Virus record (IMG/VR): IMGVR_UViG_3300031851_000199 | Coordinates: 1-23,332 of that record | Direction: 5' to 3' (one strand) | From: a virus | Length of the DNA: 23,332 bases | Part shown: one piece after another, positions 3,001-22,532 of the stretch | Numbering within the stretch: the first letter of the stretch is position 1 | Layout of the letters: the number at the start of each line of letters is the position of its first letter | Notes under the pieces: model-generated | Told to the model about the DNA's origin: nothing | What the model saw: the letters and a program-made list of their open reading frames with translations, nothing else | The model's database searches: none | Translations under genes and position numbers: made by a program

Positions 3001-4633
3001 TATAACTTTCTAAAGTTGTTCTATATTCATCTTCAGGAAGTTTATCTTTTTTAGCATTTAATTCATTTACTCTTTTTAATTGTAAATCTTTTAAATCTTC
3101 AAATTTATTTATTTCGTCAATATTTTGCTTCGAAAGCAAATTGAAAACTCCATTGGCTCTTACCGTTATATTTTTTAATTGATCTTGAGTATCGTCTATT
3201 TCTTTTTGAACTTCGACCGCTACCTCGGTATCTTCAGTATTTTTTAATTGCTGATTTAAATCTAATAGTCTGTCTGTTAATTTTTCAGTATTATTTTCTG
3301 GGTCTATTTCAGCTCTTAAGCCTTTTAAAGCTTTATAACTTTTTTTAGCACCTCTACCTCCAAGTCCAAAAACCACGGTTCCTGCAGCCGCCTGTAGAAA
3401 AGTTTCTGCCCCGTTTTCTAATATTGATTCCCAAGCCTCTTTGCCTGCTTCAATTACATCTTTGCCTTGCGCCAGTGAAGTGTTATAGGTTTCAACCCCT
3501 AACTGTCCTACTTCTGTTAAGCCTTCTCTTGTAGGCGATGTTAAAAAGTGTTTAACTAATCCTTTGCTAAAAAATTTATTAGCATTCATAGCCTCCCTTA
3601 TGCCTTTTATACCAAATCTTTCAAGGCCTATAGACAATGTAGCTAGTGCTGCAGGAGTTCCTATTTCAAGTTCGTTGTCGTCTATTAATTTTTGATAAGC
3701 TTCTTGAATAGGTATTTCTTCTCCATATTTATACTTTGCTTTTTCAATATTATAATCCCTAATCATTGGCCCGGCAATCTGCGGTACAAGCGTAGCCCCA
3801 TATGTAAAAACAGCAGGAATAGCGCTAGCACCTACGTTGGCAGTTCCATTTATAACACCTGCTAATGCTTCTCCTAAATCACCTTCTTTAATACCTTCTT
3901 TTATGCTAGCTGATGGGGGAAATAGTTTTTTAATATCCTCTGATTGCTTTACTAATTTTTGTAAAGTTTCATTTTCCTTCCTATTTTCAATTTTACTTTT
4001 ATCAAATTCTTTAAACCTGACATCCCTCATTGTAGTTCCAAAAACAGGCTCTGCATCTGCGACATTTTCAATTGCACTTAATGTGCTTACCGCTACACCA
4101 TTTGCCATATCCATCCAATACGGACCCGGCATTCCTCCTAACCCATCTGGTCCCATAAAAGTATAGGCTATATCAGAAACTCTTTCTTTAAATGTAAAAG
4201 GTTTATTGGTTTTGGGATTAATAGGCCTTACATATTTTTCCGGAAGAAGCTCTGCGTTCAACTCCCCTGTTTGTCTGTAATTTTCAAAAGCTTCTTTTTG
4301 TTCGCCCCTAAACTCTCCTTGATCAAACCTAGCTTTTATATTGGTTAAATCCTCTTCATTATACTTTTTAAATTCTTTGCTAGCGGCATAATTTTCAAAC
4401 TCTTCTTTTGTAACTTCTTGATTATTTATAGAATAAGGAACTTTGCCTGCTACACTATCTTGTTTTTCAACAGCAATAGGTTCTACTTCAGTTGCTTCTT
4501 TAACAGTATTTTCACCAAGCATTTCTGCTTTTTTACTATCAATAGCAGCTTGCACTTCTTGCTGAGACTTGCCTTGTGACTCCAATGACTGGGCTAATGC
4601 AATTAATTCTTGCTTTTGTGCTTCTGTTAGCAT
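1..4633 (-). CDS. Giant internal virion (ejection-type) protein with C-terminal HAD phosphatase-like domain, partial
   Basis: An open frame reads without a stop from an ATG at 4633 to the left edge, giving 1544 codons; the 3' end is outside the window. The start lies one base after the stop of the preceding gene, in an A/T-rich leader. The N-terminus is helical and Q/E/A-rich. Hydrophobic, small-residue-rich stretches occur near residues 250-290 and 408-425, with an E-G-L-T-E-V-G-Q segment near 370, a type of sequence I associate with large phage internal proteins. Residues about 430-650 are charged and helical. From about 1435 a HAD-type domain begins: motif I F-D-F-D-D-T-L (D1439, D1441, T1443) and motif II V-L-T-A-R-P (T1518); motifs III and IV would lie beyond the edge. 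Size, place after the tail genes and partnership with the two preceding genes suggest a T7 gp16-like role in DNA ejection. That role is inferred; no transglycosylase motif was recognised. Confidence 0.85.
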   Translation of the reverse strand, partial: MLTEAQKQELIALAQSLESQGKSQQEVQAAIDSKKAEMLGENTVKEATEVEPIAVEKQDSVAGKVPYSINNQEVTKEEFENYAASKEFKKYNEEDLTNIKARFDQGEFRGEQKEAFENYRQTGELNAELLPEKYVRPINPKTNKPFTFKERVSDIAYTFMGPDGLGGMPGPYWMDMANGVAVSTLSAIENVADAEPVFGTTMRDVRFKEFDKSKIENRKENETLQKLVKQSEDIKKLFPPSASIKEGIKEGDLGEALAGVINGTANVGASAIPAVFTYGATLVPQIAGPMIRDYNIEKAKYKYGEEIPIQEAYQKLIDDNELEIGTPAALATLSIGLERFGIKGIREAMNANKFFSKGLVKHFLTSPTREGLTEVGQLGVETYNTSLAQGKDVIEAGKEAWESILENGAETFLQAAAGTVVFGLGGRGAKKSYKALKGLRAEIDPENNTEKLTDRLLDLNQQLKNTEDTEVAVEVQKEIDDTQDQLKNITVRANGVFNLLSKQNIDEINKFEDLKDLQLKRVNELNAKKDKLPEDEYRTTLESYKKSFIKAKNRIKGIAEDAVIEAQEVEGVSEVSIKNATEINKAHDANPKSVEVFNNVVVPKMQPLLNKVANTLFKEYSEFGEKAETKAEFITDLTYGTDKNPSSSLRGLYKSFKPEEGQKLSTYIVRNLENRGKRILDEKVGQQVTEGAASLEAPQARELTSDERVDFAIAEDRVDTGKNIGLKLDNNKVKNIVAKHFNPDTKKFKSQIANDFKVAFKDPVDKFFGKDKVSDKQFSDKVIQNAAPLYDMLTVEGMRMARAKDEKTGVSVNPFEDAGMLVFKDGKLEKAAFENTKVNALLNYLNDPSVAKTTRSNRKARFKEAVAVSVASSQAIKALSTDKDLQTKYKDLNQLKSEITNNVGITNELTDSQKQIYIEIAGEKINSGNIHKLLGIDQITIDSKTDVKAKQAKMLDFIKTNKIPSWLLEASQLQNFGAQSLSRPTKQSPKYYVLFDGSSVKGEFASINKNGVHLYNPPAEFINEIRPSRGGLYNGKKGRAWLDALAAARENDKFYITPDLKRVTIPKKIEGNEKATKKFLKENQSGFIKNQEASDLIVKILNDAVNKNGAPIELASLFITGALQATSGWIKTSAPITHIVDKFEHGTTGPYNKGIKTVEEHTPPANVAGLSLIPMIKFNQVNKLKPKWNKNFFQVLQSKKNDQFIAENKLTKSLPKGVSMLDNNAGIKRMSAANLDLNKISNVTTNKTVAEEIGVESPSTPDAIKAANEVVTEDKVEFIIDRAIAKLTELTGTKGFAVDPFLLLAAKDVSLNVLVGGLRTVKATYKAGKSLTKAIDAGYQTVKKYMSEAQWLEFAKVATQEIEDVNTPARARLAVYNEAGVAAAQENIRKEGEKLLQDLGVDTKDLSTAEINERLGVLSKAKAAAMNKNAPKKKARVFDFDDTLAKSKSNVLYLLPDGTTGSLTATEFAEQSGELAELGAQFDFSEFSTVKDGSKGPLAVLAKKLTEAKGDRDIFVLTARPAAAAESIKSFLRSALGISVPLDN

Positions 4634-7946: not shown

Positions 7947-8186
7947 TTATTGACTTGAATAAACCGCTTCTGAGTTAACAGCAAACAGTTCAGCTTTGTT
8001 AATTGATTTATCTACCGGTAGCTTTAAGCGAGTACGCATAAATGTACCTTTTGTTCCCGACACAAGCTTAGTTGCGTCCGCCACAACAGCACCAGATGAA
8101 ACTTTATATGTTGTTTCTTCCGACACTATTGGTGCAAAATACTTACCTTCTTTTTCTTCAAAAGGAAATTTAATTATCGTACTCAT
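7947..8186 (-). CDS. Small virion-region protein of unknown function (79 aa)
   Basis: Not recognised. The 79-residue product has no membrane segment or signal peptide, and its pattern of alternating polar and hydrophobic residues suggests beta structure. Its ATG shares one base with the stop codon of the giant tail protein (TAATG), so translation is probably coupled to that gene. The cupin gene starts 6 bases after its stop. By position it is most likely a minor structural or assembly protein. Confidence 0.7.
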   Translation of the reverse strand: MSTIIKFPFEEKEGKYFAPIVSEETTYKVSSGAVVADATKLVSGTKGTFMRTRLKLPVDKSINKAELFAVNSEAVYSSQ

Positions 8187-11100
8187 TAAGCTTGATTTAT
8201 TGTTATAGTTTGTTTTGCAATTGCAGATCCTGTAACTCTAGCGTTGTTATAAGGCTCTATTTCAATGTCTGCCGTTCTGCTTGAGCCTGTAGTGTTATCT
8301 TCTACGTTAATAGTAAAAGGATAATTTGAGCCTAAAAAATCAATTCCATCAGGATCAACAACTTTTGATCCAGCCGAACCATTTAATAATAGCCAAGACG
8401 GTGTTGAGCCGCCGCTGATAACAGCAGATATTCGTATTGGAACTGTAGCTCCATTAGAATTGGTTATAGTTGTATCTGTATTGCCTGAGGCTGTAAAAGA
8501 TATTGAACCAACATATGTACCAACAGATGCTGTGACTTCACCTGAACCTGTTATAGTCGAGGTCGCTGTTAAATCAGAAGCGCTAGGTGGTATTACAATA
8601 ACTTTTTCTAAATACTCTTGTGATACATTATCTATTGTTGTGCTTGATATAGAGTAACCAGGAACGTCATAAGCAAGACTATATGAGCTAGGTAGTAAAA
8701 CTTTGTCTGTGCCACTAGCTGTCCATCTTAAGGTTGCTGTCCTGGTTGTATTAGCACTATAAGGACTATTACTATATGCGTTACCAGCAGAAGTGCCAGC
8801 AGGTGTGGTTAAACCACCGCTAGCGGGGGTTGCCCATGTTATAAGCGGTAAAACTGTTGCTGCACCACTTACTCCTAAAGAATTATTTGTTGCTGTTGTG
8901 GGTACAAGCAAAGGGAATGTTGCTAAGACGTCTCCATTGTTATACCCCAAGGCAAAATCAGTAACATTAGTACCATTACCCATGCCACTGTGGACGCTGC
9001 AATAATAGTATAATGTAGGAGTAGTAGCGGATACAACTATTTGTGTATATGCACCAGCAGAACCAGGTGTTCCATTATAGGTTACTCCTGTTGTATATTC
9101 AGTCCCACTCCCGTGAGTGCCATCAGATGTTGTGCTAAATTTTAAAGGATGGCCTGTGTTAGAACTATTACTTTGATCAAATATATATGTTTTGCCTTTT
9201 GTTAAAATTAGTATAGGCTGCTTTAAAGCCTCTATACCATTGGGGGCATCGTCTATAGCGTATTTATTCGGGCTATAATTTCTAACTAAAACATTCCTAG
9301 TTACAGTAGATGCTGGTACAGCTTGAAGAGTCGTTAAACCGCTTGTATTTGCCACTATATTACCTGGATCTATATAGTGTGTAGAAGTTGGTGATACTGT
9401 TAAAACTAAATTATTTGCACCAGATGTAGTATATGTTGCAAGAGCAGGACTAACAGCTCCATTAGAAACTGAGTCTCCAACACTCACTGTTAATAAACTA
9501 ATTTCAAATATTAAGGCAGCGCCTGTCCCTGATATTGTTACGGTTTTTATTTCATCGCTAATTCCAGCTGTTCCTGTAATTAAAAATACTAAATTATTAT
9601 TTGTAATAGCAGAAGGATTTTGTACTCCAAGGCCGCTTCCGGTTAAAACAACATCAGTGATGTTTTCAAACTCATAATCTGAATTTTTAGGCTTAGCGGT
9701 AATGATCCATTGAACAGATTCCCCGTTTTTAGCGTACACAGATTGCTCGCCAGTTATTACGCTATTATCAGCAGCACCGCTTAATTGCAATGTTAACAAA
9801 CTAAAGCTTTCTAAAGCAGGCTCGTTGCCTACAGAAGAAATATCTGTTTGCATAAAATCTAATTCCCAACCCGTAGTCCCTTCATAACTTATATTATTAA
9901 AAGTTTTTATTGTTGAAGGATTGTCGTTTAATATAGGCTCTATATAAGATTCAGCCGCGCTTGCACCATAAAAGGTATTCCTATTAACGCTTTCACTGTT
10001 ATGTTTCCATAATTTGCCATTTTTAAAAGTATAATAAACGTTATTTAAACTTAATCCGCCTTCTTGTTCAAAAGATTTAAAACTAGTCCAGCCCTGGCTT
10101 CCTTCATCAAAACTTATAGTAAAATAACCATCTATTGCTGTGGCAACATTGGTGTCTTTAAATCCACTAAACCCTTTACCTATTAAGGTTAAATTATAAA
10201 GATTATTATATTCATCATAAGAACCGATAATTTCGTCGGATTTAGCTAAAGCATCTCTAAAAAAATCGCTCATTCCGTTTTGCGATATTTCAACTAAGCC
10301 GTTCTGAGATAATCTCATTACACTGCCCCTACTCTTATCAGTAAAGTATTTAGCATAACCATAATATGCAAACGACATAGGATCTTTAGACATGCCAAAT
10401 TCTCCCGCGTATGGAGCAATGGTACCCAAAAACTGAGCACTTGTTGTTACAGGTATCGCACCACCTTCTGCAGAATATATAAAGTCTTTATTAACTGGCG
10501 ATCTTGAAATCTTATCTTCTTGAAAAATAATTATTTGTGTATCATCAGCAAAAAGCTTTTGTACTGATCCATCTTGAGGATCTAAAGATATTGTTAAACC
10601 GCCTTCGGCTTCATTAAATTGGTTTATATAGTTTATATTTGTTCTAGAATTAAATAGACCACTTGAGTGAATTAATGTATTAAATCTTCTTTCTTCTGCA
10701 AAATTTTCTTTTACAACATAAGCTCTAACACCTATATCAAAAGATTTTTCGTTATATCCAGCTCTAAGTCTATTTATTTCAATGTGAGTTCCTGAACTAA
10801 AAGTTAATAAATAACAATTGTAAAATTGTATATCTACCGCTGTAGTTGTCAAATCAGATATTAATCCTCCAGTTGATGTTTCAAAAAATATATCTAAATC
10901 CGACTGAAAGGGTTCAGTTTCAAAAACGCATATACCCGAGGTAACCGTGTCTGTAGGAACATTAGCGGTCCCAGCAGGGTTGTTTATAGATTGTACTTTA
11001 GTTAAGCTAGCAGTGGTTTTATTTACTCCCCCTAATATTTTAGGATATACAGCTACGTTGCAGGGAGAAATAGTACCGCTTGTGCTTGGGGGTATTACTG

Positions 11101-12553
11101 CTGTTTGGTCTCTTGGTACTTTATTTATACTATCACCTAGTCTTGCTACAGTGTTTAAAGCTGTTATACCAGAAATCCAATTATAATATTCTTGCTCTCT
11201 TTGTTTTACTACAATTCTATAAGAGTAACACCAATCTAAACTTTGTAGTGCTGTTATTGTAGTTTGTGCAAATGCTATACGCAAAGAATTAAAAACGCTT
11301 GTACTGTCAGCCTCTCCTGTTGCTGCATCAATAAAAACAGTATCTCCCCCCGTTTCAGATAATAATACAGGAGTTTGTCTTCCAAATTTATCCGCTAAAA
11401 CTACGCCAACTTGATATGTTCTTCGAGACTTAACTGACATACTGTTATCTAGCTCTGTATACCTAGCTGAGGCTTCTCCGGTTCTTGAAACCGTAAAAGA
11501 TACGTTAGGTATATCAAAATTTTGCAAATAATTGCCGTATACTAGTCTACCACCAGCTAGCTCTTGTGACTTAGCTATTCTTGGAACAGCGTCTGCTACT
11601 CTTGTTAATTGATCAGAGGGTAGCGTTTTAAATGGATCTTGTGACTTGTAAAAAAAGTTTACACTTGTTTCTGAAGTTAAAACTTTGCTTTCTACCACAT
11701 ACAAAGCACCACTTCCGGTTTCTTTATATATAAGCTCAACTTTATCAATCGCTAGCCCTTGAGGGGTTGGAACTGAAAGCTGAACAGATTTTATTGCATT
11801 AACAAAAGTTTCAATTTCTCCAAAATCATTTATATCTGAAGATATTGTATCCACATTACCCAATCTTGAAAAACAAATAGGAGTAAAGGGAGCTAATATA
11901 CTATATTCACCGTCTTCAAATTTATATCTATATGAAAATCTAATTAATTTATTTTCTAAAAAATTTGATGTAATGGGGTTGCCTTGCTCATCTAAGTTTG
12001 AAACCCCTACAATTGAAGCAGCTTTATAAGGAGCAGGCTTAGCGACAGAAATAACGTCGTCTATGTTTGCTGCTAAATTATATCTACCTGGTGTGCTTCT
12101 AGCTGTTTCAACGTTTATTTTTCTAGGAGGATTTCTATCATCTGTAAAAAATAAAAGTTCATCAACTAAATTAATTCCTGTTATAGGATATTTTTGATGA
12201 AAATTTAAGGCGGCACTATTAACTATTACTGTAGATTTATTTGCTTTTTGATTGTATTCAATTATTTGGTGACTGCCAGAATTTATTTCATTGTAAGAAT
12301 TATTATTAGTTATAAAATAATATATTCTATCATTACCGTTATCTCGATATTCACCTATTTTTTTTGCATTAGATATTGCTGTATCTATTATAAGCTCATT
12401 ACCTAATATGTTTTCTACAGCCCCAATATCTGAGCTTTCAGATTTACTTACATTTATATTTAATGCTTCTCGATATTCACCGGGCTTTAGCATTTTATCG
12501 TCTAAATCGCGATTCATTCGACTCGCGTTAAACAATCTTTTAATTTCTGGCAT
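8186..12553 (-). CDS. Giant tail 'stabilisation'-type protein with Ig-like, cupredoxin-like and BACON-like domains
   Basis: This 1455-residue protein begins with S-R-M-N-R-D-L-D-D and then a P-G-E-Y-R-E-A-L-N segment and a G-N-E-L stretch. This is the N-terminal pattern I associate with the P22 gp10-like tail stabilisation proteins of crAss-like phages. Residues 1 to about 880 form one large region without named motifs. About 900-1090 looks like two or more Ig-like beta domains rich in Thr, Ser and Gly. About 1098-1200 resembles a cupredoxin, with H1135 (in T-G-H-P-L-K-F) and C1185, H1188 and M1191 (in Y-Y-Y-C-S-V-H-S-G-M-G). About 1350-1455 is BACON-like: S-W1387-L, N1420, S-S-R1426-T-A-D-I-E-I and a terminal T-I-N-Q-A. 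It probably sits on the tail and binds cell-surface material. The fold calls are by eye. It follows the connector gene by 5 bases. Confidence 0.85.
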   Translation of the reverse strand: MPEIKRLFNASRMNRDLDDKMLKPGEYREALNINVSKSESSDIGAVENILGNELIIDTAISNAKKIGEYRDNGNDRIYYFITNNNSYNEINSGSHQIIEYNQKANKSTVIVNSAALNFHQKYPITGINLVDELLFFTDDRNPPRKINVETARSTPGRYNLAANIDDVISVAKPAPYKAASIVGVSNLDEQGNPITSNFLENKLIRFSYRYKFEDGEYSILAPFTPICFSRLGNVDTISSDINDFGEIETFVNAIKSVQLSVPTPQGLAIDKVELIYKETGSGALYVVESKVLTSETSVNFFYKSQDPFKTLPSDQLTRVADAVPRIAKSQELAGGRLVYGNYLQNFDIPNVSFTVSRTGEASARYTELDNSMSVKSRRTYQVGVVLADKFGRQTPVLLSETGGDTVFIDAATGEADSTSVFNSLRIAFAQTTITALQSLDWCYSYRIVVKQREQEYYNWISGITALNTVARLGDSINKVPRDQTAVIPPSTSGTISPCNVAVYPKILGGVNKTTASLTKVQSINNPAGTANVPTDTVTSGICVFETEPFQSDLDIFFETSTGGLISDLTTTAVDIQFYNCYLLTFSSGTHIEINRLRAGYNEKSFDIGVRAYVVKENFAEERRFNTLIHSSGLFNSRTNINYINQFNEAEGGLTISLDPQDGSVQKLFADDTQIIIFQEDKISRSPVNKDFIYSAEGGAIPVTTSAQFLGTIAPYAGEFGMSKDPMSFAYYGYAKYFTDKSRGSVMRLSQNGLVEISQNGMSDFFRDALAKSDEIIGSYDEYNNLYNLTLIGKGFSGFKDTNVATAIDGYFTISFDEGSQGWTSFKSFEQEGGLSLNNVYYTFKNGKLWKHNSESVNRNTFYGASAAESYIEPILNDNPSTIKTFNNISYEGTTGWELDFMQTDISSVGNEPALESFSLLTLQLSGAADNSVITGEQSVYAKNGESVQWIITAKPKNSDYEFENITDVVLTGSGLGVQNPSAITNNNLVFLITGTAGISDEIKTVTISGTGAALIFEISLLTVSVGDSVSNGAVSPALATYTTSGANNLVLTVSPTSTHYIDPGNIVANTSGLTTLQAVPASTVTRNVLVRNYSPNKYAIDDAPNGIEALKQPILILTKGKTYIFDQSNSSNTGHPLKFSTTSDGTHGSGTEYTTGVTYNGTPGSAGAYTQIVVSATTPTLYYYCSVHSGMGNGTNVTDFALGYNNGDVLATFPLLVPTTATNNSLGVSGAATVLPLITWATPASGGLTTPAGTSAGNAYSNSPYSANTTRTATLRWTASGTDKVLLPSSYSLAYDVPGYSISSTTIDNVSQEYLEKVIVIPPSASDLTATSTITGSGEVTASVGTYVGSISFTASGNTDTTITNSNGATVPIRISAVISGGSTPSWLLLNGSAGSKVVDPDGIDFLGSNYPFTINVEDNTTGSSRTADIEIEPYNNARVTGSAIAKQTITINQA

Positions 12554-15107: not shown

Positions 15108-16634
15108 CTATGCTTTAAATAATACAAAGTTATTAGCACCTTGTACAATTAAACATCTTTCAGATAGATAGTGCATTCTCATTTCATCAATTGGAGATGA
15201 AGAAGCGCCACCTACAGATCCAGTAACCCAAGATTTCATTTTTCTGTTTTCAGTTTCAGAAGCTCTATATCTTACGTGTAGGAAAGGTCTCTTAATGTTT
15301 TTCCCAAGATTTTGGTCGTAAACTGTTGAAGTACCAGCAGGAACTAGTACACCTTCAACGTCTCCAAATCCACCTCTTGTTGAAAAATCATTTAGATATT
15401 TCCAGTCAGTTTTGTAAAAATCATAAGAACCTCTTCTGTATCCAGTAAATCCTAGATTAAGAGCCATATCCTCACTGTTGTTAAATACACCGAAAGAAGT
15501 ACCTCCAGAATATCCACCATTTTGTTGTGCAAGAATATCATCGATTTCTAAAGAAAGATCTCTTCCTAAGAAAAGCATGTTTTCTTCAATAGCACCTTGC
15601 TTGTCTAGTTGCTTAAGTACAGCATCAAAATCTGTTAGAGCACCACCAGAAACCTGCGCACCAAAGTCAGAGTATACATTACCTCTTGCTTCAATAGCTT
15701 CAAAGAAACCTTCAGTACCTTTAGCGGTAGCTGTAATATTTGAATCATAAAAATCCAAGGTAGCCCCAGTGTTCAATTGCTTGACACCTTCAACCATAGA
15801 CATTTCTAGATAGTCTTCCCAACGTAGCCTGTTTTCGTGCTCAGACTTCAAGTACCATAGGTATCCAGAAGCTCCATTTTCAGAAGTTACTTCAATCCAA
15901 CCGATCTGAGCAGTGTCAGAACCATTAATTGAATAGTGCTCCTTAAGAATAATAGGAGAATTGGTAAACGTAGCGTAGCTAGGATCTAGCTTTTCGTTAA
16001 AGTTACCAGTTCCTTTTGCAAATTCAGATCCGTAAGCAAGAGCTGTAAATCTTTCAGCTGCAGTAATAGCAGGAATTCCAGTCAAAGATTTAACTTGGAA
16101 ATAATTTCCAGATACGTTGGTTACAATACCTTTGATAACAGCGCCAGTTCCACCAACAGCTGAAGTTGCTGAAGATTGAGCTTGGATCATTACTGTTTGT
16201 CCTTTACGGAAATTAACAGCAGTTGTTCCTTGTGAAGTAACACCTAGGCTGGTAGGCTGAGCTGTAGGAACGTTAAAGTTCAATACAACACCCCCGTTAG
16301 AAGATGCACTTGCTGTACCAGCAGTTGTTCCCGAAGTAGGCATTGTGCCAGCAGCACTTAGATAAATAGCGTTAGCATATCTTGTGTGCAATCTACCTTG
16401 CTCAGTCCAAATAATTTGATCTGAAGTAGAAGGCATCTCCGCTGATACCATACGAAGGAAAGATCCAATAGAGCGATTTCCGTATCTCTCTACTTCTTGT
16501 TCGTACACATCAGGTAAAAATTGTTGAGCCCATTGATTGAATGAGCTATCTGTAAAATCAATATAGTTACCAGTATAAAGAGCTTTGCTTTGAGTTGGTT
16601 GCAAAGCTGCTGGTATTCCACTTGTAAAAGCCAT
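15108..16634 (-). CDS. Major capsid protein (HK97-fold type, inferred)
   Basis: This 508-residue protein would form the icosahedral shell. Its place after portal and scaffold-like genes, its length, and several segments fit the capsid proteins of crAss-like and related marine podoviruses. These segments are an N-terminal D-V-Y-E-Q-E-V-E-R-Y-G-N-R and S-D-Q-I-I-W-T-E-Q-G-R-L-H, and a C-terminal M-H-Y-L-S-E-R-C-L-I-V-Q-G. Residues about 95-220 are Thr/Ser/Gly-rich beta structure, perhaps an inserted surface domain. There is no separate protease gene nearby and no obvious cleavable N-terminal delta domain. Codons ending in C or G (AAC, AAG, TAC, GAG) seem more frequent here than in neighbouring genes, as expected for high expression. 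The ATG at 16634 has no Shine-Dalgarno; it lies in an A/T-rich leader 17 bases after the scaffold-like gene. A strong terminator follows. Confidence 0.88.
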   Translation of the reverse strand: MAFTSGIPAALQPTQSKALYTGNYIDFTDSSFNQWAQQFLPDVYEQEVERYGNRSIGSFLRMVSAEMPSTSDQIIWTEQGRLHTRYANAIYLSAAGTMPTSGTTAGTASASSNGGVVLNFNVPTAQPTSLGVTSQGTTAVNFRKGQTVMIQAQSSATSAVGGTGAVIKGIVTNVSGNYFQVKSLTGIPAITAAERFTALAYGSEFAKGTGNFNEKLDPSYATFTNSPIILKEHYSINGSDTAQIGWIEVTSENGASGYLWYLKSEHENRLRWEDYLEMSMVEGVKQLNTGATLDFYDSNITATAKGTEGFFEAIEARGNVYSDFGAQVSGGALTDFDAVLKQLDKQGAIEENMLFLGRDLSLEIDDILAQQNGGYSGGTSFGVFNNSEDMALNLGFTGYRRGSYDFYKTDWKYLNDFSTRGGFGDVEGVLVPAGTSTVYDQNLGKNIKRPFLHVRYRASETENRKMKSWVTGSVGGASSSPIDEMRMHYLSERCLIVQGANNFVLFKA

Positions 16635-16651: not shown

Positions 16652-17854
16652 TTATTTATTCCATTTTATGCGCAACCTATTTGAGGAATCGTTTTCAACA
16701 ACTCTAACTTTACTATTTGAATTTTGTACAGCTGAATTATCGCTGCGAGGGGTCATATCAATATTTTTAGATTTTTTTACCGTTTCTTTTATAGCATCGG
16801 CACGGCCTTGCTCATAGAAATGGGCTGCTAATTTATCAGCATTCCTTCCGGCAAATAAAGCTTTATGATAATCACCAACTTTTTCCATTTCGCCTTCTTT
16901 GTTTAAATAAGGCTTAATAAAGTTGTCAATTGTTGATTGAGCTGTTTTTACTTTTTTTGTATCATCTACTTTGAACCTATATTTTTTTTCTCCAACTTTA
17001 AAATCAAAACCTTTGAATTCTTCGCTAAAGAAATTATTTGTTCTAGTGTCAAATGTGTTTTTTAATTTTTTTGCTCTTTCCTGTATTTTAGTTGCTTCGT
17101 TATAAAAGTCGTGAGCCTCTTTGTATTCTTCAGGTACTTCATTTTGCTTTCTTAACTTAAGATCTGCATAGTATTTTTCCTTGGAATCATTAAAATGCTT
17201 TTGAGCTTTATATAATTCTTCTTTAAATGCTAATTGCTTTGCTTTAATTTCAGAAGGTTCTGCAACCTCTTCATCATAAGCAAAATCTTTTTGCATTAAA
17301 AAATTAATATCCTCGTTATTTAAATGAGGTTTATTATTTTTATAATATTCATAAACTAATGTGGTATTATCCATTTTAGAATAGTCTCTATTAAGATTAA
17401 CATAATCTTCCAAAGTACCATTCGTATCTTGCATAAATTCTACTAGCTTTTGAACATCTTCTGGGTATTCGTTTGTTTGTACAACGTCTTGTTCAGCATC
17501 TTGTACAATTTCTTGTTCAGATTCTTCTACAACCTCTAACGCTTCTTCTTCTTTTTCTTCACTTTGTTCGGTAAGCTCTTCAATGCTTTCTTGCTTGTTT
17601 TCTTCACGAACTTCTTCGCTAGCTTCGGATTCGTCGCGTACAGATACCTCATCTGTGCCTTGCTTTTCACTGGCATTGTTTTCTTGTGTTGGAGGGGTAT
17701 CAACATTAACGCGATATACGCCATCGTCTTGAAACCCGTAGTTAGAATCTACTTCGCCACTTTCTATTGCTTGTTCAAGCACTGCAGCTTCTTTTTCTTG
17801 CGGTGAAGTTTCTTCATTAACTTCAACCGCTTTTACTTTAACGTTTTCTTCCAT
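16652..17854 (-). CDS. Acidic scaffold-like head assembly protein
   Basis: This 400-residue protein is strongly acidic in its first 130 residues, with long Glu-rich stretches at about 60-125. A conserved-looking stretch follows at about 130-190 (L-E-D-Y-V-N-L-N-R-D-Y-S, then Y-E-Y-Y-K-N-N-K-P-H-L). A Lys/Glu-rich coiled-coil region spans about 200-270, and a short basic tail ends in R-L-R-I-K-W-N-K. An acidic helical body with a basic C-terminal tail, encoded just before the capsid gene, is the usual form of a phage scaffolding protein, where the tail contacts the coat. The assignment rests on composition and place. The Glu-rich arm overlaps another reading frame that encodes a basic 46-residue protein (17536-17676), which may explain its odd codon use. 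The gene starts 23 bases after the portal stop. Confidence 0.78.
   Translation of the reverse strand: MEENVKVKAVEVNEETSPQEKEAAVLEQAIESGEVDSNYGFQDDGVYRVNVDTPPTQENNASEKQGTDEVSVRDESEASEEVREENKQESIEELTEQSEEKEEEALEVVEESEQEIVQDAEQDVVQTNEYPEDVQKLVEFMQDTNGTLEDYVNLNRDYSKMDNTTLVYEYYKNNKPHLNNEDINFLMQKDFAYDEEVAEPSEIKAKQLAFKEELYKAQKHFNDSKEKYYADLKLRKQNEVPEEYKEAHDFYNEATKIQERAKKLKNTFDTRTNNFFSEEFKGFDFKVGEKKYRFKVDDTKKVKTAQSTIDNFIKPYLNKEGEMEKVGDYHKALFAGRNADKLAAHFYEQGRADAIKETVKKSKNIDMTPRSDNSAVQNSNSKVRVVENDSSNRLRIKWNK
17536..17676 (-). CDS. Overprinted small basic phage protein (46 aa) inside the scaffold-like gene
   Basis: In a second frame on the same strand, an ATG at 17676 opens a 46-codon ORF. The product begins MPVKSKAQMRYLYATNPKLA and continues with K-K-F-V-K-K-T; it then has S-L-P-N-K-V and ends in a run of lysines. 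The K-S-K-A-Q-x-R-(Y/F) opening and the late L-P-x-K-V match a family of short basic proteins I know from many phage genomes; their role is unclear to me. The frame extends upstream to an ATG at 17724, but the added 16 residues do not fit the family. Codons such as CGC, GCG, TCC and ACG are unusually GC-rich for this genome, which suggests that the basic frame is or was selected. No Shine-Dalgarno is present, as for its neighbours. A chance Lys-rich shadow of the Glu-rich frame is the alternative. Confidence 0.6.
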   Translation of the reverse strand: MPVKSKAQMRYLYATNPKLAKKFVKKTSKKALKSLPNKVKKKKKKR

Positions 17855-17877: not shown

Positions 17878-20301
17878 TTACTTTGCTTCAAACCTAGATA
17901 AATCAAAACCGCCTAGTACATCGTTGCCTTTCGACTCAAATGACTTTTTTGGTTTTTCTGTTTTAGGTGGGCCAGCTATAGAACTTACTGATATTTTTTT
18001 ATCAGCAATTCTTTCTTGCGTTTCAGATTGTTTTTCAACTAATTCTTTTTGTGCAGATAATTCTAATTCTTTTAATTTTACATTAAGATCATATTCAAAT
18101 TGCATAAGCTGCTTTTTTGTTTCAGCTTCAAATTGCATTTTCTTAATATTTAGTTCATTTTCAGCAGTAGATATTTGAATAGCAGAATCAGCTTTAACCT
18201 GAGCAGCTTGCGATTTTGCATTTTCAATACCAATCTGTGCTTCACCCTGGGCCTGGGCTTGAGCTACCGAAGCGGCTTGCGCAGCTTGTTGGTCTACAGC
18301 TTGTTTCTTCAGTCTTCTAAACTTAAGCAATTGATTAGCTAGTTTAATATTCCTAACCTCTCTTATATCAATAGCGTCTTCTAAAAATATGCTCTGTTGT
18401 GACAAAGCCATTTGTATATTAGCTTCTAAAGCTGCTTTTTCGTTTTCATCTGGTTGCAGATCTAAAAATATTCCAAAATCATGCAAATGTAACTTATCTA
18501 ACTCTCTTAAAGAGCCTACGGAGAATTGTCCCAAACTTGTTATAAACGCATCTCTTGTTGGATGAAATTCTAACACATCTTTAAATCTTGTTGATATTGC
18601 TTCGGCTAAGGTGATAGTAATAAAAAGACTAGAGTCTAATATATGCCTTGTAGCAACATTGCTATTAGCAGCCGCCATTTTTTGTACACCAACTAATGCT
18701 TTAGGGTCAGGATCAGAACCATCACGCGCTTCATTAAGCCCTGTAATGTCTCTTATCATCTGTAGGTATTGGTTATATGCACCAATTAATAATTGCACTT
18801 GGTTTCCACCACCACCCGGTAATTCTTGAATAGGCACTTTTCCTGGATTAGGGTCTCCATCTACAGTTAAAGATCTACCGATAATAGATCCTGTTTGAAA
18901 ATACATGTTTAATGCTTCTTGAGGATTGTAACTTGTGCCGTTGCCTAAGTCAATTTCCGCAAGTCCATCTGCGTCTATATAAACGCCTGAAGGAGTCATT
19001 CTTTGTATTGCTTGCTGCAGCTTTAAATGTGTTAGCTGAACTAAATCAGCATAAGGTGTCATTTTAGAAACTAAAGAGTCTATTTTACCTTTGTATATTC
19101 TAGGGGCGGCTACTATGTAATTCATTAATACTTTATTAGTATTTGAATGCGGCCTTACCATATTAGTTGCTTTTTTCCATTTCAAAAGCTTATTAGCACC
19201 CAATATATAAACCCCCTCATATATAACCTCTTGTGCTCTTGCTACTCTTTCAAACCTTGTTCTTTTATCTTTTGGTGGATCAAAAGAATCGTCTTTTTCT
19301 ATTGCTTTTTCAGCGCCTGAAGATATTTCTTTTATTTTATAAACATTTTTCTCCCATGTTTTCCAATTAAAATAAAGAACCGTGGCTATATTATTATCGT
19401 AACTTTGGTCGCCCTCTGCATTATAATTTATATTATAATTTTGGTAGCCATTACTTTTTTTAGCAAGGTCTCCAATTTCTTCATTTGATAGTTGAGGAAA
19501 TTGTTTTTTAAGCTCGTTTATTTTTATTGTTTTTACTTCTCCAAAATAATAACAATCTGAAAAATAAGGATCCTCTGTATAGGACCATATTAAATTTGCA
19601 GGGTCAACGTAGTCTAATTTTATACCATCTGTATTGTTAAAGGAATGCTTTACAGCCCCAATTCCTAGCACAGTTATATCATAATCAACCCTGGGTTTTA
19701 TGTAATCATATTTATTTTGATTAAATATATTTTCTATAGCTTGCTCTTCAGCTATTTCAATACCTTGCTTATAATTAAGCTGCATAAATAGATCTAACTC
19801 TTCTGTTGAGCCTGGCAATTTTTCTCTTTCTATATTTCTTACATTAGCGCCTAATTCTTTTTCAATAAGTCCTAGCATTGAATCGGTATTCATATCTCTT
19901 TGAATACCCTCTACATACTGAGTTCTTTGGCCAGTAGATATGGAGTCTTCGCCTACAGCCCTTACATTGTACAGTCTATCTTGCATACCATTAACTACGA
20001 TATCAACAAACTTAGGTATAATAGGTACAGGCTTCCAATCTAAATTAAGGTATGATAAATCTCCATTAATTGCAAATTCATCTTTGTATTTTCTAATAGA
20101 TTGCTCGCCTCTGGCATATAATCTTAATCTATGAAAATTATCTTTAAGTTCATAATATTTGCCTTGGCTACCATTGCCACTATTAAACCACTCTTGTTCT
20201 ATAGCCGTGGCTACCGCCGTACCGTATTCAACACTTTTTTTCTCAGAATCAGAAACAGCCTGACTAGGGAATTGAGAATACTTATTTTTTATTTTTGCCA
20301 T
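17878..20301 (-). CDS. Portal protein
   Basis: This 807-residue protein would form the dodecameric ring at the packaging vertex, through which DNA enters and leaves. The call rests on its place directly after the large terminase (2-base gap), on length in the range of podovirus and crAss-like portals, and on sequence character. Residues 1 to about 450 are an alpha/beta body. A P-G-G-G-G-N-Q loop precedes a helical stretch containing I-R-D-I-T-G-L-N-E-A-R-D-G, a helix-turn pattern typical of portal stem regions. From about 665 to 770 there is a long Ala/Gln- then Lys/Glu-rich helix, like the C-terminal barrel of the P22 portal. The last 35 residues are Lys/Pro-rich and probably flexible. The ATG at 20301 lies in a TTAAATAAAT leader without Shine-Dalgarno. 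Confidence 0.87.
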   Translation of the reverse strand: MAKIKNKYSQFPSQAVSDSEKKSVEYGTAVATAIEQEWFNSGNGSQGKYYELKDNFHRLRLYARGEQSIRKYKDEFAINGDLSYLNLDWKPVPIIPKFVDIVVNGMQDRLYNVRAVGEDSISTGQRTQYVEGIQRDMNTDSMLGLIEKELGANVRNIEREKLPGSTEELDLFMQLNYKQGIEIAEEQAIENIFNQNKYDYIKPRVDYDITVLGIGAVKHSFNNTDGIKLDYVDPANLIWSYTEDPYFSDCYYFGEVKTIKINELKKQFPQLSNEEIGDLAKKSNGYQNYNINYNAEGDQSYDNNIATVLYFNWKTWEKNVYKIKEISSGAEKAIEKDDSFDPPKDKRTRFERVARAQEVIYEGVYILGANKLLKWKKATNMVRPHSNTNKVLMNYIVAAPRIYKGKIDSLVSKMTPYADLVQLTHLKLQQAIQRMTPSGVYIDADGLAEIDLGNGTSYNPQEALNMYFQTGSIIGRSLTVDGDPNPGKVPIQELPGGGGNQVQLLIGAYNQYLQMIRDITGLNEARDGSDPDPKALVGVQKMAAANSNVATRHILDSSLFITITLAEAISTRFKDVLEFHPTRDAFITSLGQFSVGSLRELDKLHLHDFGIFLDLQPDENEKAALEANIQMALSQQSIFLEDAIDIREVRNIKLANQLLKFRRLKKQAVDQQAAQAASVAQAQAQGEAQIGIENAKSQAAQVKADSAIQISTAENELNIKKMQFEAETKKQLMQFEYDLNVKLKELELSAQKELVEKQSETQERIADKKISVSSIAGPPKTEKPKKSFESKGNDVLGGFDLSRFEAK

Positions 20302-20303
20302 AT

Positions 20304-22532
20304 TTATTTAATTAGCGTACTTTGATCGCCCTCATTCTTATACTTAGAGAATGAAAAATTTAGTTTTTTTGTTGTTCGTTCTTGCCTTGGGCGATATAAA
20401 TGTTTTCTACATGCCATTATAGCTAACCCACTGCTTATAGAAGCATCGTGAGCCGTACGTTTTGATATATCGAATTTAGCCCAGTCTTCTAATGTTCTTT
20501 GAAAATGCATATTACCGTGGTTATCGCCTTGATTACCAACGTTTTCTTCTATATATGATTCAATTGCAGCCGCGTGAGCTTGCTTTATGTCTTCTGATGT
20601 ATTAGGTATACCACCTAATTCTATTTCAGATTTAGACAATGCACCCCGTAATTTATCAGGCCGGTTCATAGAAAAACCTCTATACCCTCTTCTTTTTAAA
20701 TGATAAAGTAATCTTGGCTTGTTATTTTCTGCAAGTATTGGCATACCATAAAATGCTATCGCCATAAGTACATCTTCAAAAAAAACTTCTGCTGTTTGAG
20801 GTCTTGCGACATATTCTAAAAAGAATTTGCTTGACGGGAACTCGGGTTGCATTGAAAAGGTTGTTAAGCCATGTAACGCTCCGTTTGATCCTCCGCCACC
20901 AACAGTACCGGAAATATCATAACTATCACAACCAAATGCGCCGTAGTCTATATTACCAGGATATTTAATACCATTTTTTTCAATAATGTTATTTCTGAGC
21001 TCTAGCTTAGGTATCCAACTAATAAAAAATCTACCGTTTTTAGTAGGTGTCCAAATTACTTCTGTATCTTTTATTCCGTTTTTCCAAGAAAAACTCCCTT
21101 GAGCAACATAACCTTTTGAAGTCATTTCTTCGTTATGATCTATTTGCTCGTATATTTTTGTTAAATTAAATAAAGAATGTAATGTTTCATCCCTAAAAGC
21201 GTGTTTTTCACTTCTAGGAAATTGTCTGTAATATTCGTTTAATGCGTCCGCATCATTCTTTAATCCTTCTACCTCATTTTCCCAGTGCTCAATAACTCCC
21301 GCACGAATGAGGCCTCCATCAATTCCTTCAACCGGAGATGATGGTGTTTCGAACACAGGGTATCCATACTTATTAATGAACCCTTCGTAGCCCCATTCCA
21401 TAGGTATGAACAAAGAATATAGTCCACTTGAAGTCTGTCCATTTTTATTTCGCTTGTTAACATCTGAGTTGTAATATAATTTTTTAAAATTATCACCGCC
21501 TTTATTTAAAGCGTTAGAGGTAGACCCCATCATGCATTTGCCAACAACTCTAGCGCCTAATCTTAAACAGGTTTTTGTAACTCTCCAGTTGTTTAATATA
21601 TTATCAGGTCTTTCCCATTTACCGGATTCATCATGAACTAATAGTATTAGTTTTTCTCCATCATAACTATTATCTCCTGTATTTTTCCAGTCAATTGTTG
21701 TATCTAAACCCTGCCCTAATAATTCATCATCTGATTCTTTAAAAGAATTTCTAGTTAATCTTCTTGATGGTAATTTATAAGACAACTCTGTTTTTGGTCT
21801 TTCCATACCATCTTGTATGGGTTTAAAAAAGAATGGATAATTTACCGAGATCGGTACAACCTTGTCGGTAAACATTTTTTTCGCATCAGCACCCGTTTTC
21901 GATAATATACCGAACCTAGAGTCTCTTGACGTCGTAGCCACATTAACAGTTTCTGATGATGCCATGAAGCTAAAGCCAGACCGTCTATTCTTGAGGTAGC
22001 ACATTCCGTAACACCTATAGTCCGCCTTACAGGCTTCCCAAAAGTAATAGAATATTCTGTTTGCCTGCCTAAATTCGGGCGCACCCACGTCAATCTTTGT
22101 CCAGTTGAGGTACATATAGTGTGACCCTGTAATGTAACACGGTTCACTGTTGCACATGAACCAATACCCATCATTCCTATGATTAAACTCAACATCAATA
22201 TATTTATAGTATTGCTCTTTAGTTTGTTCTGGATGGTTTTTAAATTCATGTATTGATCTTATTCTTTTTAAAGATTCTGGTCTTTCCCTTCTTATAAATA
22301 TTTGATCTTCAGCTTTTAGCTTTTGACCATCTATTTTTTCAGGGGTTTGAGGTATTGCTATCTTAAGACCTTGAACCTCATATATATCTCCGATTGTACC
22401 GTCTTTACTTATGACTACGCAATCTAAATCATCGTCGTAGCCGTACTTATATTTTTTAAGCCTATTTTTTTTTCTTACTTCTTTAGTATCGAGGTGATCT
22501 CTGGTAATGTTATAAAGTGATTGTTTATACAT
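20304..22532 (-). CDS. terL: Terminase large subunit
   Basis: This 742-residue DNA-packaging motor combines an ATPase with a headful or site-specific nuclease. The ATPase has a variant Walker A, K-N-R-R-S-G-F-S (181-188), lacking the usual G-K-S/T. Its Walker B is L-I-L-L-V-H-D-E (295-302, with D301 and E302), and a G-S-T-S-N coupling motif lies at 336-340. The RuvC-like nuclease would use D536 (G-C-D-S-Y-D), E602 (A-E-N-N) and D696 (A-H-D-A-S). The G-Y-W-F and S-H-Y-M-Y-L-N segment at 122-143 is a familiar lead-in in terminases of this type. The long N-terminus and R-R-x-G-F-S signature fit crAss-like and related Bacteroidota phages. The ATG overlaps the preceding stop by one base (TAATG). 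No clear small subunit is seen. Confidence 0.93.
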   Translation of the reverse strand: MYKQSLYNITRDHLDTKEVRKKNRLKKYKYGYDDDLDCVVISKDGTIGDIYEVQGLKIAIPQTPEKIDGQKLKAEDQIFIRRERPESLKRIRSIHEFKNHPEQTKEQYYKYIDVEFNHRNDGYWFMCNSEPCYITGSHYMYLNWTKIDVGAPEFRQANRIFYYFWEACKADYRCYGMCYLKNRRSGFSFMASSETVNVATTSRDSRFGILSKTGADAKKMFTDKVVPISVNYPFFFKPIQDGMERPKTELSYKLPSRRLTRNSFKESDDELLGQGLDTTIDWKNTGDNSYDGEKLILLVHDESGKWERPDNILNNWRVTKTCLRLGARVVGKCMMGSTSNALNKGGDNFKKLYYNSDVNKRNKNGQTSSGLYSLFIPMEWGYEGFINKYGYPVFETPSSPVEGIDGGLIRAGVIEHWENEVEGLKNDADALNEYYRQFPRSEKHAFRDETLHSLFNLTKIYEQIDHNEEMTSKGYVAQGSFSWKNGIKDTEVIWTPTKNGRFFISWIPKLELRNNIIEKNGIKYPGNIDYGAFGCDSYDISGTVGGGGSNGALHGLTTFSMQPEFPSSKFFLEYVARPQTAEVFFEDVLMAIAFYGMPILAENNKPRLLYHLKRRGYRGFSMNRPDKLRGALSKSEIELGGIPNTSEDIKQAHAAAIESYIEENVGNQGDNHGNMHFQRTLEDWAKFDISKRTAHDASISSGLAIMACRKHLYRPRQERTTKKLNFSFSKYKNEGDQSTLIK

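Follow-up and report, generated by a model that had tools for sequence, protein, structure and literature searches.

The 46-codon open reading frame that lies, one base on in register, inside the acidic arm of a scaffold-like gene in the 23,332-nucleotide stretch analysed here (the window) is very probably a real, unannotated gene. It would encode a basic three-helix protein with kin in phrog_1375, probably translated from an internal start and relocated between hosts as a dual-coding segment. Comparison of sequences establishes its conservation, its coding constraint, its fixed register, its presence in two unrelated host genes and the existence of stand-alone kin; that it is translated, how it relocates and what it does we infer from these.

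The window is 23.3 kb of phage DNA whose long genes all lie on the minus strand (Table 1). The host gene is flanked by homologues of portal and capsid proteins, both here and in its relatives, which is the position of a scaffolding protein. Its product matched no known scaffolding protein in PHROG, Pfam or PDB sequence searches and for this reason is called scaffold-like throughout; a homologue from an elemo phage (QMP85866.1) is annotated as 'structural protein'. Elsewhere in the window, a 1455-residue virion protein (8186-12553, minus strand) contains a stretch, SNTGHPLKFSTTSDGTHG...YYYCSVHSGMGN, which we take to resemble a copper-binding cupredoxin motif.

Table 1. Position of the nested gene, its host and the neighbouring genes in the window.
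Feature	Position	Strand	Basis
Terminase-position gene	20304-22532	-	Place in gene order
Portal protein	17878-20301	-	phrog_6547, E 5e-133
Host gene, scaffold-like protein, 400 aa	16652-17854	-	ORF; between portal and capsid homologues; predicted helical core from about residue 131
Putative translation initiation region, A-rich, without Shine-Dalgarno motif	17677-17690 (-1 to -14)	-	A enrichment at 120 distinct nested starts, low structure
Nested gene, 46 codons plus stop (+1 relative to host gene)	17536-17676 (ATG 17676, stop 17536-17538)	-	ORF, phrog_1375 E 6e-4, conservation, nested N/S 0.21, AF2 pLDDT 91.4
Host codons 60-106, acidic, predicted disordered dual-frame arm segment	17537-17677	-	AF2 pLDDT, host synonymous rate, D+E content
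Major-capsid-like virion protein	15108-16634	-	phrog_13704 'virion structural protein', E 2e-93
Giant gene, start only	4633-2	-	After capsid-like gene and further structural genes

A sequence-only reading of the window had pointed to a 46-codon frame on the same strand as the host gene, over a Glu-rich host stretch. Both are present, and 19 of the 46 host residues in the overlap are Asp or Glu. The product of the nested frame is MPVKSKAQMRYLYATNPKLAKKFVKKTSKKALKSLPNKVKKKKKKR. The frame is also open further upstream, as far as an ATG at 17724 that would give 62 residues; this longer reading was rejected, and the internal ATG taken as the start, because the extension is not kept in relatives. 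The cluster of GC-rich codons described in the same reading is real but modest, GC being 0.433 in the nested frame against 0.315 in the remainder of the host gene, a level equalled in about 9% of 141-nt windows across the record.

Openness alone is weak evidence. When synonymous codons of the host gene were shuffled, 115 of the 2000 resulting sequences had no stop in the nested region (6%; the figure is 14% when all hosts are taken), and 10% contained an open +1 run that equalled or exceeded the 70 codons observed. Poly-Glu reads as poly-Lys one base on (GAA as AAG), and the open frame might be an untranslated by-product of such purine-rich codons. We consider this highly improbable, since the most conserved part of the nested protein is its non-repetitive first 30 residues, permuted +1 peptides are at most 72% identical to the real one, the host N/S lies above 1 while that of the nested frame is 0.21, and the same protein is encoded within unrelated hosts and also by stand-alone genes. 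It is this comparative evidence that lifts the nested frame beyond chance.

The nested frame is present with the same ATG in all 21 of the closest scaffold relatives (L002-L022); most of these are 68-96% identical, and one comes from a 68-kb contig. Four further relatives at 46-48% identity (L023-L025, L058) share both the frame and its start, and beyond the nearest 21 it is kept in the same register at more than 130 loci. Searching IMG/VR with the small protein yielded at least 375 confirmed loci; in all 80 that were fetched among the matches listed, the frame sits at +1, with the same ATG, inside a gene that equals the scaffold-like gene in size and, wherever the flank reaches, directly follows a portal-sized gene. 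Stops in the nested frame of close relatives would have spoken against a gene, and none was found in the set over which conservation was read (L002-L025, L058 and L084-L163).

G003 and G005, long records of 50 and 57 kb, contain no recognisable copy of the nested gene at any position. These represent a copy-less subclade (L027-L048) that lies inside the scaffold-nested phages, and in which the gene has apparently been lost or has diverged past recognition. Since some scaffold relatives lack it, so far as is visible, not every phage of the group requires the nested gene. A scan of genome contigs gave six loci only, filed under Woesearchaeota, Sphingomonadaceae, Chitinophagaceae or Flammeovirgaceae MAGs (the PBPJ01 contigs L164, L166 and L169, and L165, L167 and L168). 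All six look like phage-gene contigs wrongly binned into bacterial or archaeal MAGs. The capsid-like protein of L168 and L169 is 90% identical to that of the window.

The two frames differ sharply in what they tolerate. Nearest-neighbour changes were counted over 78 distinct sequences in the overlap: those that alter the host protein and are silent in the nested one number 262 against 93 expected, those that alter both 110 against 194, and those silent in the host and altering the nested protein 51 against 100, counts that treat related sequences as partly independent and so describe patterns rather than exact rates. N/S is about 0.21 for the nested frame and about 2.4 for the host in this set (1.4-2.4 for the host across analyses of the overlap), and four other sequence sets, three of them from the giant gene described below, give 0.12-0.36 and 1.65-3.4, respectively. 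The drop in synonymous variation of the scaffold frame that had been suggested as a check was found: across the 16 distinct host genes that are closest, synonymous change in the host frame runs at 9.7 (arbitrary units) in the overlap, whereas the rates before it, immediately after it and towards the C-terminus are 44.9, 46.2 and 32.4, respectively, a 3-5-fold reduction that coincides exactly with the overlap. Within host codons 61-100 the variable sites shift from the third to the first position of the host codon (13, 2 and 2 of 20, and 13, 5 and 4 of 20, at positions 1, 2 and 3).

Both frames are thus open, host synonymous change is reduced and the nested frame is under purifying selection, as dual coding requires. 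Judged by its substitution pattern, the nested frame is protein-coding. Of the two frames it is the one that is conserved and widespread, and the acidic scaffold arm is the permissive partner; the picture of a basic protein newly overprinted on a scaffold gene does not hold. The DNA conservation is sharply confined to the limits of the ORF, and might be ascribed to a DNA or RNA element (a recombination or packaging site, or a structured RNA) rather than a protein gene. This is most improbable given that changes concentrate at the third position of the nested frame (168 of 301 in one set), that its length varies by whole codons, that RNA structure at its start is weaker rather than stronger and that its product has a confidently predicted protein fold.

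The scaffold-like protein is predicted to be disordered across the overlap. In its AF2 model (whole-model pTM 0.33), pLDDT falls below 50 at residues 53-127, which span the overlap, ahead of the helical core. Host residues in the overlap vary freely, yet the arm remains acidic. Asp plus Glu make up 0.36 of them against 0.11 expected, and Lys plus Arg 0.10 against 0.27, the expectation coming from nested proteins back-translated according to the codon usage of the window, with no stops allowed in the host frame. The first of these differences rules out paired charge as an automatic effect of coding. Lysines of the nested protein are encoded by AAG in 12 of 17 cases in the window, compared with 77 of 336 in the other genes, and together with the excess acidity this preference shows that codon choice in the nested gene serves the charge of the arm.

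The sequence-only reading had gone further and suggested that the acidic arm and the basic protein would make a neat pair of charges and might bind each other. That codon choice keeps the arm acidic agrees with this, but as proof of a partnership it is unsupported: where related scaffold genes lack the nested gene, their arms are just as acidic (Asp plus Glu 0.319), and the basic gene also occurs in an unrelated giant gene, so that acidity is a property of the arm and not of a special pair. The arm before the core has a median length of 127 residues with the nested gene and 109 without; an extra 46-codon block inserted into the arm is unsupported as a simple picture, since nested arms are only about 18 residues longer.

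The nested product is confidently predicted to be a three-helix mini-domain. AF2 with 50 aligned sequences places helices at residues 6-15, 17-26 and 29-33, followed by a basic tail, with a mean pLDDT of 91.4. In structure it comes closest to small stand-alone phage proteins, among them the 44-residue A0A6J5L1Y8 (TM 0.91, E 2.6e-3), and weaker matches come from Phabio, 201phi2-1 and Barnyard. A fold search of the PDB gave no match at E 0.001 or better, and sequence searches of Pfam, NCBIfam and the PDB gave nothing useful; PDB profile matches to designed repeat proteins were set aside as repeat artefacts by their appearance, no stretch passing alone.

The proposed likeness to a widespread family of short basic phage proteins is borne out by a match of the window protein to the phrog_1375 profile (E 6e-4, 21 bits), with E 4e-5 to 6e-5 for L166, L094 and L058 and 6e-10 for gp3 of Mycobacterium phage Indlulamithi. 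The profile either reaches giant-hosted members at E 0.07 or misses them, and for this reason we regard the nested group as a distant branch of the family. Size, an N-terminal S-x-x-Q motif, a late L-P-x-K motif and the basic tail are shared, whereas the members of phrog_1375 that were seen are separate genes beside portal or terminase, and the window gene is nested at +1 with a weak HMM match. That it does not stand alone in the head and packaging region limits the likeness rather than the membership, position lying outside the profile. With tblastn the window protein found no match among isolate phages, probably through masking of its Lys-rich sequence; less Lys-rich relatives worked as queries, and kin of phrog_1375 found by tblastn include Gordonia phage genes near terL.

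Phabio gp376-like proteins (phrog_16759) and the N-termini of large virion proteins of phrog_25121 and phrog_22033 resemble it as a short module through a weak sequence match (tblastn E 3) and a fold match (TM 0.55 for Phabio), but these have a longer spacer and stand alone or form the N-terminal part of large head proteins, and homology to them is insecure. Over its first 45-58 residues the small Phabio protein (L172) matches the N-termini of two families of large virion structural proteins, phrog_25121 and phrog_22033, as if its module could be fused to head proteins.

In F. johnsoniae, adenine at -12, -13, -6 and -3 raises initiation (PMC6847099). Adenine is enriched over same-phase controls at each of these positions among 120 distinct nested starts (-13, 93% against 33%; -12, 78% against 49%; -6, 82% against 48%; -3, 84% against 48%), and at -11 as well. 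Those at -3 and -6 are hardly forced by the host protein because both are third positions of host codons. Folding is weaker at the nested start than nearby (mean -1.5 against -3.3 kcal/mol, with a p of 7e-12 that relatedness inflates), and Shine-Dalgarno-like motifs are rare, at 3 of 121 starts. In sequence context, then, the nested ATG is an initiation-like start of the A-rich, unstructured Bacteroidota type, from which the nested protein would probably be made by internal initiation on the scaffold message. In L107, L108, L111, L117 and their kin, a host-frame ATG (MNK-x-NE...) lies 25 nt (eight codons) upstream of the nested ATG and might serve as the start of a second, shorter version of the scaffold-like protein.

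Ribosomal frameshifting is common in phage late genes, and ribosomes reading the scaffold arm come upon the nested frame further along the message; the nested frame might be read only as a fusion, by a +1 shift out of that arm. We hold this to be very unlikely, as the conserved signature is one of initiation and not of a shift site. The ATG is kept in every copy found by patterns that did not require one, the nested frame upstream of it is unconserved in relatives and usually closed within a dozen codons, and stand-alone relatives begin at the same Met as nested copies.

The small gene also has a second, unrelated host. In G015, G018 and G019 (L064, L070, L073) the scaffold gene has no nested ORF and the small gene lies at a distance, at +1 within another gene whose open frame runs for 1040 codons or more, and G016 carries a diverged copy inside a 2903-codon ORF. 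The elemo phages of Flavobacterium (L171) have it inside a giant 'structural protein' gene, the nested ATG lying at position 3583 in MT497078, and it is likewise nested in a giant gene in MW202828 (L170) and the MAG contigs L165 and L167. Every elemo record among the matches listed has its small-gene match under the giant gene; the annotation of two elemo records shows only the giant gene at that site. The giant proteins share a recurring peptide in the host frame, (D/N)A(V/I)Q(E/K)Q(S/T)T, which is the shadow of MPFKSKAQ in the small one. A second IMG/VR scan yielded 80 loci, of which 50 are nested in the same scaffold family (with a portal homologue alongside, and a capsid homologue too where the contig reaches), 13 are nested in a giant gene and 17 stand alone or have only a short overlapping frame. 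The register is +1 in every nested case, scaffold and giant hosts alike. Each long record with the small gene has one clear copy, and G049 adds a second, weak match.

Stand-alone homologues, another check proposed at the outset, do exist, in phrog_1375 and as Indlulamithi gp3. Such relatives lie beside terminase (L253, L254, L262 and GTE2) or portal (L251 and Indlulamithi gp3), and in L274 close to a gene product with a weak match to an internal virion protein. Kin of the small gene also lie in unannotated stretches of the GenBank records of Gordonia phages GTE2 (HQ403646, 556-636), LilyPad and Suzy and Nocardia phage P3.1, which suggests that stand-alone copies, too, are often missed. As the elemo annotations show, gene callers systematically overlook a common phage gene.

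Over the first 90 nt of the ORF, giant- and scaffold-hosted copies are 71-89% identical, compared with 20-57%, or near random, in the 60-nt flanks. On a tree of nested-ORF DNA, giant-hosted L195 and L171 group within scaffold-hosted L196, L197 and L200 with 98% support. Host type needs 6 parsimony changes on this tree and the starred branches force at least 2 to 3 per label, the number and direction of moves being uncertain with 126 columns and many poorly supported forks. Mapped on the portal tree, nesting in the scaffold takes 4 changes, among them losses or displacements within the clade of scaffold-nested phages.

Stand-alone copies adjoin head genes, where a neighbouring frame could extend over them, and each host gene might have separately overprinted its own neighbouring copy by frame extension or fusion, with no moving dual-coding unit. 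The portal tree by itself is compatible with few such events. We nevertheless think repeated capture rather unlikely. Only 10 of 20,000 back-translations of the window protein were stop-free in the host frame, and a stand-alone copy would for that reason seldom be ready for overprinting; L195 and L171 share 78-86% of their DNA with L196-L200 and group among them; and the register is +1 without exception. Comparison of the copies therefore leads us to favour movement of a ready-made dual-coding segment. We lean, if only somewhat, towards a dual-coding cassette that relocates between unrelated hosts, the scaffold arm and the giant virion protein, with both frames remaining usable and the disordered acidic linkers of late phage genes as its landing places.

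On this cassette model the basic small gene appears to be a wanderer, probably older than its present hosts, which the arm accommodates. The nested amino acids would be the conserved partner, the arm tolerating almost any stop-free, acidic sequence, and changes of site would most likely have come about by recombination of the ready-made segment. The small protein would be produced together with a late structural protein, as both nested hosts are late structural genes. Since stand-alone kin adjoin terminase or portal as well, a role as an accessory protein in head assembly, in packaging or in ejection of the genome fits best, and we put it forward tentatively. Flavobacterium sp. BAL314 and its elemo phages offer a cultivable model for expression and function, and the pair is a natural test system for how one sequence serves two proteins and for the limits of disordered acidic linkers.

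A literature search that covered few subscription journals found no description of this nested gene, and an earlier report may exist. A precedent in form is Rz1 in Rz of lambda, a gene wholly inside another in the +1 frame. Pairs of the Rz1/Rz type share with the present one the complete nesting, the common strand and the +1 register. The present gene differs in that it is found inside two unrelated hosts as well as standing alone, and in that the stretch of host it overlaps is a disordered arm that tolerates change. Overlaps common to several virus families are found mainly in dsDNA phages and reach 185 nt (PMC7017920). In the usual model of overprinting, a frame arises de novo on an ancestral one and disorder relieves the conflict between them (PMC8227390). 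The present case resembles viral overprinting as usually described (PMC8227390, PMC3744397) in that two proteins come from one stretch and one partner is disordered, but the order is reversed, the nested frame being the widespread, conserved one. Where overlaps are usually viewed as new frames on old genes, here it is the nested frame that looks old and the host arm that adapts.
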